Of a DNA stretch of 36,201 nt, positions 487-32,752 are shown one piece after another (position 1 is the first letter of the stretch; every line of letters starts with the position of its first letter). The position numbers and the translations under genes were made by a program. Source of the stretch: Flavobacteriales bacterium (lineage in GTDB: Bacteria; Bacteroidota; Bacteroidia; Flavobacteriales_D; Parvicellaceae); assembly GCA_026993705.1 (NCBI GenBank), contig JALWSJ010000422.1, forward strand, positions 1-36,201. The letters are read 5' to 3'. The notes under the pieces are model-generated. The model was not told the DNA's origin. It made no database searches and saw only the letters and a list, made by a program, of their open reading frames with translations.

Positions 487-634
487 GCGTTAGGGATAGA
501 ACGGCGTGTTTGAACTCCTTTTGGTTTGTTGCATATATGCAAACCAAAAGAGTGAGTAGTGATAGCCCGACCCTAAACACAAAAAGTACGTACCCAGTGA
601 GGGTATGTGCTTTTTGTGTTTAGGGAAACGCCCG
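487..634 (+). repeat. Structured repeat A, copy E1 (subtype I)
   Basis: GCGTTAGGGATAGAACGGCGTGTTTGAACTCCTTTT-GGTTTGTTGCATATATGCAAACC-AAAAGAGTGAGTAGTGATAGCCCGACC-CTAAACACAAAAAG...CTTTTTGTGTTTAG-GGAAACGCCC. Confidence 0.9.
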
Positions 635-4870: not shown

Positions 4871-4900
4871 TTTTTTTATGCCGTAATGGGAACGCCCAAA
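4871..4900 (+). repeat. Truncated structured repeat A (3' end only)
   Basis: TTTTTTTATGCCGTAATGGGAACGCCCAAA closely matches the 3' end of copy E6 (TTTTTTATGCTGTAATGGGAACGCCCAAA). Confidence 0.75.
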
Positions 4901-4901
4901 T

Positions 4902-9189: not shown

Positions 9190-9342
9190 GGGCGTTTCCA
9201 TTACAGCATAAAAAAGTGGTGTAGTTCTCACTACACCACTTTTTAACGCTGTAATGGTCGGGCTATCACTACTCACTCTTTTGGTTTGCATATATGCAAC
9301 AAACCAAAAGGAGTTCAAACATACCGTTCTATCCCTAACGCG
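9190..9342 (-). repeat. Structured repeat A, copy E2 (subtype I)
   Basis: Reverse complement reads GCGTTAGGGATAGAACGGTATGTTTGAACTCCTTTT-GGTTTGTTGCATATATGCAAACC-AAAAGAGTGAGTAGTGATAGCCCGACC-ATTACAGCGTTAAAAAGTGGTGTAGT...-GGAAACGCCC. Confidence 0.9.
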
Positions 9343-12356: not shown

Positions 12357-12532
12357 AATTGTAACGTTTGCTTATGATTATACGATTGTATTCCCTACGA
12401 GAAAATACTTTAATTAATCAAATATAGGTATAATTGAATGATTTTCAAATAGAGATAATGATTGGTATTGAGGATTTTATTCGAATTGTTGTATAATTTG
12501 TTTTATTTACTTCTTCCGCACTAGGGATTGGT

Positions 12533-12694
12533 ATCCCTAACACGAGTGAAATAGACGGTATAAAGCGTTTTTTTCATTCCTTATCCTTCTTCAAAAAATA
12601 TTTCTATAGCGGGTGCTATGCAAAGATTTTTTTCATCGTCTAAGAAACCAAAAATTCACTTTCTCTCCGCCAATTTCACTCGCACTAGGGATAG
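12533..12694 (+). repeat. Module C (spacer module 5' of repeat A), copy C1
   Basis: ATCCCTAACACGAGTG...CACTCGCACTAGGGAT inverted ends; internal TTTTTTTCATCGTCTAAGAAACCAAAAATTCACTTTCT shared with the 20.8 kb and 32.3 kb copies. Confidence 0.75.
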
Positions 12695-12829
12695 AACGGC
12701 GTGTTTGAACTCCTTTTTCTCTCTCGCTGTTCGAGAGAAAAAGAGTGAGTAGTGATAGCCCGACCCCATTTTATGAAAACAATGTTTCGCGTTAGCGATA
12801 TGTTGTTTTCATAAAATGGGGGAGTGCCC
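12684..12829 (+). repeat. Structured repeat A, copy E3 (subtype I, variant closing stem GCACT/AGTGC)
   Basis: GCACTAGGGATAGAACGGCGTGTTTGAACTCCTTTT-TCTCTCTCGCTGTTCGAGAGAA-AAAGAGTGAGTAGTGATAGCCCGACC-CCATTTTATGAAAACA...TTGTTTTCATAAAATGG-GGGAGTGCCC. Confidence 0.9.
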
Positions 12830-13755
12830 TACAATATCATATCGGAATAATTTAATATTGTTTTATACCCTTTTTCTTCAAAATAGTGCATGTTATTTTT
12901 ATTGCCTGTAACTAAGACAAAATCTCCTCCCCAGGCTCCTAGTGATTTGACAATTCCTCCTTGATAATCGGAAAAAAGTTTCGGCTGTATTGGTTCTTGT
13001 TGTAATATTTCCGCTACGATATTTTCGTGTTCGTTAAGGTAATGTTCAAACGATTGCAAATCAGAAACTGTGGTTAAAGCTGCTGAAATTTCGCTTACGC
13101 GTTGCACTTTTTGGTAAAAACTATCGTCTTTCTTTGTCTTTTTCTGATATTCTTTTATTTCTGCGTAACTGTTTTGTTTTTGATTGAGGTGAACAAAATA
13201 GATTTTATCATTAAAGTCTGGAAAAAAATCAACAGGTGAAATAATTGCCTTTTTTGCTTTCTTTTGGTATAATATTGGTGTGTTTGAATTGGCACAAGCT
13301 ACATCGTACCCACTACCACTAAAGACATTAAAAAACAGAGTCAACACATCTATTTCAAACCATTTTGCTATATTGTTTAGGAGGGTAGAGCTACTTCCTA
13401 ACCCCCAATTTCTAGGAAACTCTAAGCGTGTGGTTACCTGATAACTTTTTTGTTGTTCAAAAATAGTTTTGGTTGATTGGTTTTGTGTAGATTGTAGAAT
13501 TTTGATTAATGTCTCAGCCGTTTTTTTATCACTGGTTTTGAGTATTGAAAAGTTGTTGATTTGTATTTCGGCGGTAAACCAACTATTTTCTTCATTATCT
13601 ATACTGTTCCATTTTAGAATTGAGCCTTTATTTGGTTGTACTTCTTCTACTTGCAAGCTCTGCCCAAATTTAGTAGGCAAAGCAAGGGTTGTTGCTCCAT
13701 CTAAAGCCAGATACTCCCCCGTGAGCATTAATTTACCATTGCTGTGATAGTGCAT
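12829..13755 (-). CDS. GHMP-family kinase
   Basis: NGKLMLTGEYLALDGATTLALPT N-terminus; FPRNWGLGSSSTLLNNIAKW GHMP ATP-binding motif; GSGYDVACA. Confidence 0.85.
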   Translation of the reverse strand: MHYHSNGKLMLTGEYLALDGATTLALPTKFGQSLQVEEVQPNKGSILKWNSIDNEENSWFTAEIQINNFSILKTSDKKTAETLIKILQSTQNQSTKTIFEQQKSYQVTTRLEFPRNWGLGSSSTLLNNIAKWFEIDVLTLFFNVFSGSGYDVACANSNTPILYQKKAKKAIISPVDFFPDFNDKIYFVHLNQKQNSYAEIKEYQKKTKKDDSFYQKVQRVSEISAALTTVSDLQSFEHYLNEHENIVAEILQQEPIQPKLFSDYQGGIVKSLGAWGGDFVLVTGNKNNMHYFEEKGYKTILNYSDMIL

Positions 13756-20490: not shown

Positions 20491-20630
20491 TGGGCGTTCC
20501 CCTTTTCTGCTAAAGACACATATCGCTATGCGAAACGTGTCTTCAGCAGAAAAGGGTCGGGCTATCCACTATATCTTTTGCCCTCCAAAAGGAGGGAGGG
20601 CAAAAGGATGCCGTTCCTATCCCTAACGCG
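20491..20630 (-). repeat. Structured repeat A, copy E4 (subtype II)
   Basis: Reverse complement reads GCGTTAGGGATAGGAACGGCATCCTTTT-GCCCTCC...GGAGGGC-AAAAGATATAGTGGATAGCCCGACC-CTTTTCTGCTGAAGACAC...GTGTCTTTAGCAGAAAAG-GGGAACGCCC. Confidence 0.9.
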
Positions 20631-20668
20631 GGTCAGGTAAGTGTAAATTTTATTGTGCTAAGATGTTC

Positions 20669-20796
20669 CGTGTTAGGGATTCCAACTAACGTAAAAATAC
20701 AATATTGAAAATCAATGGATTATGAAATTACCTAAATTTTTATGTTAGCTCAAAAACTCAACTGTTTTTCGCAGTCGCTTAATGATCCCTAACGCG
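20669..20796 (+). repeat. Module B, copy B1 (~128 bp, inverted GTGTTAGGGAT/ATCCCTAACGC ends)
   Basis: Shares TTCCAACTAACGTAAAAATA...CTCAACTGTTTTT...CAGTCGCTTAAT.ATCCCTAACGC with the copy at 32393. Confidence 0.85.
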
Positions 20797-20891
20797 AAGA
20801 AAATGAGCGAGAAGAAAACGGAGTTTATTTTTCATCGTCTAAAGAAACTAAAACTCATGTTCTTAGCACTCATTTCACATGCGTTAGGGAT
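20785..20891 (+). repeat. Module C, copy C2
   Basis: ATCCCTAACGCGAAGAAAATGAGCG...TTTTTCATCGTCTAAAGAAACTAAAACTCAT...ACTCATTTCACATGCGTTAGGGAT. Confidence 0.75.
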
Positions 20892-21013
20892 AGAAGTGGC
20901 ATCCTTTTGGGTTGTTGCGTATATGCAACCCAAAAGATATAACGGATAGCCTGACCTTTCGCGAGTAAAATAAACGGTAAAACCTTTATTTTATTCGCGA
21001 AAGGGAACGCCCA
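20881..21013 (+). repeat. Structured repeat A, copy E5 (subtype II)
   Basis: GCGTTAGGGATAGAAGTGGCATCCTTTT-GGGTTGTTGCGTATATGCAACCC-AAAAGATATAACGGATAGCCTGACC-TTTCGCGAGTAAAATAAA...TTTATTTTATTCGCGAAA-GGGAACGCCC. Confidence 0.9.
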
Positions 21014-25772: not shown

Positions 25773-25917
25773 GCGTTAGGGAAAGAAGTGGCATCCTTTT
25801 GTGTTGTTGCATATATGCAACACAAAAGATATAACGGATAGCCCGACCATTACGGCGTTAAAAAGTGGTGTAGTAGTAACGGAACTGCTTTTTTATGCTG
25901 TAATGGGAACGCCCAAA
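25773..25917 (+). repeat. Structured repeat A, copy E6 (subtype II)
   Basis: GCGTTAGGGAAAGAAGTGGCATCCTTTT-GTGTTGTTGCATATATGCAACAC-AAAAGATATAACGGATAGCCCGACC-ATTACGGCGTTAAAAAG...TTTTTTATGCTGTAAT-GGGAACGCCC. Confidence 0.9.
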
Positions 25918-32115: not shown

Positions 32116-32255
32116 GGGCGTTCCCATTACAGCATAAAAAAGCAGTTTCGCTACACAACACTACTTTTTAACGCTGTAATGGTCGGGCTATCCGCTATAT
32201 CTTTTGCCCTCCAAAAGGAGGGAGGGCAAAAGGATGCCGCTTCTATCCCTAACGC
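32116..32255 (-). repeat. Structured repeat A, copy E7 (subtype II)
   Basis: Reverse complement reads GCGTTAGGGATAGAAGCGGCATCCTTTT-GCCCTCC...GGAGGGC-AAAAGATATAGCGGATAGCCCGACC-ATTACAGCGTTAAAAAG...CTTTTTTATGCTGTAAT-GGGAACGCCC. Confidence 0.9.
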
Positions 32256-32403: not shown

Positions 32404-32521
32404 GCTTCCAACTAACGTAAAAATATCGTGCTGAATATCAAATAGTTATAAAATTGTTGTTTTTTACGTTAGCAACAAAACTCAACTGTTTTTTACACAG
32501 TCGCTTAATAATCCCTAACGC
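32393..32521 (+). repeat. Module B, copy B2 (~129 bp, inverted GCGTTAGGGAT/ATCCCTAACGC ends)
   Basis: GCGTTAGGGATGCTTCCAACTAACGTAAAAATAT...TTTTTTACGTTAGC...CAACTGTTTTTTACACAGTCGCTTAATAATCCCTAACGC. Confidence 0.85.
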
Positions 32522-32522
32522 C

Positions 32523-32619
32523 AGATTGTCTAAAAACCTAATTTACAGTAAGATTTATATCTGATTATCCATGTGTTATAATTCTTGTTTTCAAGTTTCT
32601 TAGGGTTTTTAGACAGTCT
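32523..32619. repeat. MITE-like inverted-repeat element (~97 bp)
   Basis: AGATTGTCTAAAAACCTAA ... TTAGGGTTTTTAGACAGTCT imperfect inverted ends. Confidence 0.6.
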
Positions 32620-32752
32620 GACGCAAGTGGAATGAGTGCATAGAAAGCGAATTTTAGTTTTCTTAAACAATGAAAAATTCTTTTGAGTATTCTTATACCA
32701 TTTAAACATAAAAACGTAATTTTATTATTTTCGTAAAAACTTTTAATCAACG

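Follow-up and report, generated by a model that had tools for sequence, protein, structure and literature searches.

An outer closing stem joins a Flavo-1-related repeat of Flavobacteriales into a three-way junction

The outer stem that pairs the two ends of a dispersed, Flavo-1-related repeat is real and general, and it closes the repeat into one three-way junction. The repeat was studied in a window of 36,201 nucleotides from a Flavobacteriales bacterium of the Parvicellaceae (contig JALWSJ010000422.1 of GenBank assembly GCA_026993705.1). Parsing of the window revealed seven full copies, six of which begin with GCGTT and end with AACGC; the seventh, designated E3, begins with GCACT and ends with AGTGC (Table 1). 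The earlier note had reported the same terminal sequences, which were reproduced exactly on re-parsing, and had placed E3 at positions 12684-12829, of which both ends are 2 nt too high, as the parse gives 12682-12827. The P1 closing stem and the third arm lie beyond the public Rfam model of Flavo-1.

Table 1. Features of E3 and of the other full copies in the window.
Feature	Coordinates	Strand	Basis
E3, entire three-way-junction unit, 146 nt	12682..12827	+	parse, fold, Flavo-1 match
E3 outer stem P1, 5′ arm GCACT (GCGTT in the six other copies)	12682..12686	+
E3 outer stem P1, 3′ arm AGTGC	12823..12827	+
E3 arm P2 (hp1), GGGATAG...ATAGCCC, variant with enlarged internal loop	12688..12761	+	cmscan alignment; basal and middle pairs covary
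E3 arm P3 (hp2), 58-nt hairpin with GNNA-type loop, outside the Rfam model	12764..12821	+
E3 conserved 3′ tail, CC[AT]A	12828..12831	+
E3 5′ module: short hairpin GCACTAGGGATTGGTATCCCTAACACG (12518-12544), then long imperfect hairpin	12518..12681	+	fold z -5.3
GCGTT/AACGC copy, hp1 variant as in E3	487..631	+	parse
GCGTT/AACGC copy, hp1 variant as in E3	9192..9341	-	parse
GCGTT/AACGC copy	20494..20629	-	Flavo-1, 60.6 bits
GCGTT/AACGC copy	20881..21010	+	Flavo-1, 57.6 bits
GCGTT/AACGC copy	25773..25912	+	Flavo-1, 52.7 bits
GCGTT/AACGC copy	32118..32255	-	Flavo-1, 63.5 bits

RNA folding of E3 gives -68.2 kcal/mol (z -10.5) with all five outer-stem pairs formed at probabilities of 0.92-0.99, and folding with DNA parameters (z -10.6) again contains the outer stem and hp2. 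The base of hp1 in the optimum RNA fold of E3 differs slightly from the family structure, which is based on comparative data rather than on that optimum. Beside a Flavo-1 core, GCACTAGGGA has no second instance in the 1.07 Mb of the source genome examined. It recurs once, 164 nt upstream (12518-12527), inside the 5′ hairpin module of E3 itself, and owing to this recurrence the 5′ allele of E3 may be a local copy. Elsewhere in the window, a lone 3′ end (hp2 arm plus GGGAACGCCCAAAT) at 4872-4901 is 97% like the copy at 25889; no full element was detected there, and it is probably a remnant. The two copies at 20494-21010 lie back to back in opposite orientations, and between them the minus strand carries an extra partial GCGTTAGGGAT end.

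The repeat shares the P2 arm and the internal loops of that arm with Flavo-1 RNA (RF01705; Weinberg et al. 2010, PMC2864571). In a cmscan search, four window copies exceed the Flavo-1 cut-off (52.7-63.5 bits), and three, including E3, fall below it; in these three, hp1 is of a variant type whose internal loop is longer. E3 matches at 12677-12769 with 27.5 bits against a gathering cut-off of 42, and it is therefore termed a below-cut-off relative of Flavo-1. It aligns across model positions 1-76 and shows P2 folded over its full length, with the GGG-A-UA base, the GAA/GGA loop and a paired apical stem, deviating from RF01705 in the middle of the arm by its larger loop. As the 76 positions of the Rfam model describe P2 alone with unpaired flanks, without P1, P3 or tail, the outer stem and hp2 fall outside it. 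The source genome contains at least 150 Flavo-1 matches, and 219 copies were parsed, the genome counts resting on 1.07 Mb chosen around family matches. Among congeners the copy number of the family ranges from 1 to more than 80. In the phylum sample, the genomes taken from one genus (g70, family f17) have Flavo-1 in high copy number among the matches listed, and the genus of the window is therefore not alone in its strong amplification. Many matches in the source genome are a few hundred nt or less from a contig end, as if the repeat broke the assembly. Flavo-1 is counted among the most abundant small-RNA families (PMC9029176).

Comparison across genomes revealed the outer stem without any structural input. 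RNAalifold, run on a MAFFT alignment of 32 elements from 16 genomes (set 1), recovered P1 together with arms P2 and P3 unaided, which bears out the proposal of the earlier note that ends about 140 nt apart pair and that the outer stem, hp1 and hp2 make one three-way junction. Double changes occur at 24 of the 27 predicted pairs. Over all pairs, 97.1% of the cells are paired (75.7% when shuffled, 38-53% when slid), and 175 cells are double-changed, compared with 46 in shuffles and with 8 one-sided cells in the alignment itself. For P1, 97.5% of the cells are paired (75.5% shuffled, 19-61% with a slid partner) and 33 are double-changed (8.1 in shuffles); double changes at all five pairs were matched by 4 of 500 shuffles, and the paired percentage, the double-changed cells and the covariation score by none of 500, a test that is inflated by kinship among the sequences, whereas the slid control retains that kinship. 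In a second set (52 elements, 22 genomes), in which the 3′ arm was set without recourse to complementarity, by the CC[AT]AA tail and in a few cases by hand, 96.9% of P1 cells are standard pairs (shuffle maximum 73.8%) and 65 are double-changed (shuffle maximum 25); one element, L250, is visibly off by one base, an error that works against the result. The basal and middle pairs of P2 also covary across genomes. One genome (G001) alone has seven different complementary P1 arm pairs, which argues against a fixed terminal-repeat sequence. The third arm, hp2 (P3), is an optional part of the unit. It is missing from four elements (L145, L241, L248 and L252), where a short TCG linker joins P2 to the 3′ arm of P1.

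Covariation evidence from the source genome alone is thinner than this cross-genome evidence. The 3′ arm of the 219 copies was set by the end of hp2, and complementarity was not used. The inner four P1 pairs are almost always retained, with 589 Watson-Crick, 14 G.U, 4 A.C and 6 other combinations at pairs 2-4, and double-changed pairs among the inner four occur in 7 of the 219 copies (GTGTT/AACAC in four, GCATT/AATGC in two, and E3). At the outermost position, 163 copies have a G-C pair and 44 a one-sided A.C mismatch. Many copies mutated in one arm only, which the earlier note had named as evidence against the stem, were thus found at this position and at none of the inner four. Orthologous-site comparison showed that the outermost base co-varies with the 5′ flanking module, and hence this base may belong to that module. 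The earlier note had further presented E3 as direct covariation evidence. E3 is indeed a good example, but as proof it is weak and not direct, because source-genome copies exchange arms and its 5′ allele repeats in its own module; its altered stem may represent one or two copying events and not four substitutions.

The repeat is intergenic. With genes called by a simple codon-usage script, 217 of the 219 copies overlap no called gene. A convergent 3′ neighbor is found for 116 copies, its stop codon lying within 15 nt in 73 and within 30 nt in 16 more, and 88 copies lie upstream of a same-strand gene at a median of 94 nt. The tail of E3 contains the TAG stop codon of a convergent gene (12829-13755, minus strand). 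In five congeners the E3 site, downstream of this gene, a kinase gene, is empty under strict patterns, on which such verdicts of absence depend, and is too diverged for a duplication to be read. In other genomes, a start codon often follows the 3′ end at a distance of 14-50 nt, or a convergent stop codon is close by. Three genera (L129, L175 and L236), each with one family match in its genome, have retained the element between the same pair of genes, ahead of one for an RND-like transporter. Three congeners (L243, L249 and L254) likewise have it ahead of a probable glycerol kinase gene (probable glpK); both gene names come from reading short translations without a family search. At the probable glpK sites the P1 arms are GCATT/AATGC, GCATG/CATGC and GCGTT/AACGC, and the non-coding DNA upstream barely aligns. 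These two fixed sites give the cleanest covariation, although at the probable glpK site replacement by copying is possible. Both look functional rather than selfish. A consistent sense position upstream of related genes, true at these two loci, is false for the family, in which gene starts and convergent stops are mixed in most of the genomes covered.

Comparison with a related genome, G005, which shares about 91% DNA identity with the source genome over the matching parts of the window, revealed how the repeat turns over. Among 24 matches of 3′ flanks, the element is present in both genomes at 19 and, by reading the sequence, at 2 more; the remaining 3 are short and hit unrelated places. The 24 matches include no clear case in which one genome has the element inserted and the other lacks it, and recent movement is therefore without support from this comparison. 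Median identities at the 19 shared sites are 92.5% for the 3′ flank, 88% for hp2, 80% for hp1 and 54% for the 5′ 60 nt. The hp1 and hp2 types switch independently at fixed sites, and all nine changed hp2 pairs at the shared sites keep pairing. The tips of hp2 look inverted between the two genomes at two sites. One site differs between the two genomes by a 252-nt 5′ module that only one of them has and whose GCGTTAGGGA junctions are exact, insertion and deletion being indistinguishable. At window positions 32404-32641 there are about 240 nt of 5′-module sequence where G005 (L202, 6779-6810) has only a short GTTAGGGATTGGTATCCCTAAC hairpin. The 5′ modules (window 12534-12691; L023, 2180-2452) form a long imperfect hairpin with the ends TCCCTAAC and GTTAGGGA (TAGGGA in E3). 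Owing to this swapping of arms and modules, apparently compensatory changes within one genome may be imported by copying.

Regarding the origin of the family, we put at even probability that the E3 family is a REP/BOX-like non-autonomous mobile repeat that folds as one three-way junction in single-stranded form, either RNA or DNA. The unit comprises 4-5 pairs of closing stem (P1), arm P2, whose internal loops are conserved, an optional P3 and then the CC[AT]AA tail. The repeat most likely spread as a non-autonomous element recognized by its fold rather than by a fixed sequence; such recognition would let P1 drift while still pairing. Inserted copies would remain in place beside gene ends, their pairing kept by selection and also by hairpin arms being copied from one paralogue to another or from one arm to its partner, and a few sites were apparently retained as structured leaders. 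We infer that recognition is by fold and that mobilization occurs in trans, as we do any effect on neighboring genes.

Several candidate enzymes and systems were considered, and none gained support. For mobilization of the RAYT/IS200 type, the Y1_Tnp domain (PF01797) is absent from the source genome (84% complete), in which no RAYT/Y1 transposase was found, and from G005, the two genomes with the most copies; elsewhere it has no link with copy number. For retro-mobilization, RVT_1 was found only in the source genome, G006 and G003 and does not track copy number. Integron attC-like cassette sites were considered because direct GCGTTAGGGA repeats bound the 5′ module, and the core is, by eye, unlike RYYYAAC/GTTRRRY.

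A cis-acting structured RNA, in which the repeat would be a leader or intercistronic element tuning translation, processing or stability and the high-copy genomes would reflect secondary amplification, is a possible but tentative alternative. It agrees with the orthologous position upstream of the RND-like gene in three genera at one match per genome, with the retention upstream of probable glpK in three congeners with differing arm pairs, and with 3′ ends that in other genomes often lie 14-24 nt upstream of a start codon. In the source genome, G.U cells are also more numerous than A.C cells when unshared cells are counted, and for 216 of 219 copies the sense strand folds better than the antisense strand. 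However, DNA parameters give the same strand bias in that genome (72 of 73), and the bias is gone across genomes (19 of 32). Being strong in one genome and absent across genomes, it was dropped as proof of RNA. Similarly, set 1 has 10 G.U against 7 A.C in 837 consensus cells, compared with some G.U excess in the source genome, and a pooled hp2 excess of 124 G.U to 15 A.C was set aside as mostly one shared family position, amounting to 17 to 11 by distinct context. Most source-genome copies are antisense to the nearest 3′ gene, and a promoter of the repeat's own is not indicated, as the 300 nt upstream of 191 copies contain 43 instances of TANNTTTG, no enrichment over a background of 0.24 each. 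In Flavobacterium psychrophilum, Flavo-1 matches are found in sense and antisense orientation alike relative to transcribed regions, outside which many of them lie (PMC9723704).

The paired changes may instead be a by-product of DNA processes, the arms being templated by strand switching or by gene conversion among paralogues so that function is unneeded. The ratio of 175 double-changed to 8 one-sided cells, the seemingly inverted hp2 tips, the independent arm swaps at fixed sites and the second GCACT in the 5′ module of E3 would all be expected from it. Yet the P1 arms covary at conserved single sites although about 140 nt and two hairpins separate them, wobble steps occur in the source genome (14 G.U and 4 A.C in P1), and the conserved unpaired loops and tail are left unexplained, which makes this account unlikely. 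It is highly improbable that conservation of the 5′ arm serves the upstream module and not P1, through pairing of GCGTTAGGGA with TCCCTAAC in the 5′ hairpin, so that its match to the 3′ arm would be incidental. The long 5′ hairpin is predicted to end on the 5′ arm of E3, and an alternative pairing of that arm plus GGGA with the module, instead of with the 3′ arm, is likewise predicted. In the sequences read from other genera, however, elements lack a GCGTTAGGGA 5′ module, and their arms covary all the same; as a sole explanation this reading is refuted by the cross-genome covariation of P1. The upstream module may be a competing pairing in the source genome.

The REP-like mobile repeat proposed above resembles several known systems. 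BOX, ERIC and MITE-like elements are modular, non-coding, imperfectly palindromic repeats scattered between genes. The present repeat is like them in description, being modular, non-coding, intergenic and imperfectly palindromic, and differs in that its terminal repeats are about 5 nt long, complementary and variable between copies of one genome. MITEs of Porphyromonas named BrickBuilt are mentioned in PMC5771137. REP and GTAG- and CGTC-tagged repeats (PMC3733652; PMC12306157) are likewise high-copy, intergenic and palindromic and often lie within 15 nt of a stop codon; at that distance REPs are reported, in a statement quoted in PMC12306157, to stall ribosomes. In contrast to the single hairpin of 20-40 bp in REPs, the unit described here is a three-way junction of about 130-150 nt, which ends in variable P1 arms and the CC[AT]AA tail instead of an unpaired GTAG/CGTC tag, and for which the Y1/RAYT enzyme search of the source genome gave no candidate.

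A further, tentative idea is that the repeat has fixed addresses and exchangeable contents. Sites beside gene ends would persist between related species while the hairpin arms and 5′ modules at each were replaced from other copies. With the closing stem kept paired but free in sequence, the cell or a mobilizing enzyme would then recognize the three-way junction itself. The closed structure gives the true boundaries of the unit, and copies with the hp1 variant that had been missed become findable. What has been reported as Flavo-1 in either orientation is a dispersed repeat and not simply a small-RNA gene. Covariation among paralogues of one genome can arise by arm copying, and covariation between species at fixed loci is harder to dismiss.
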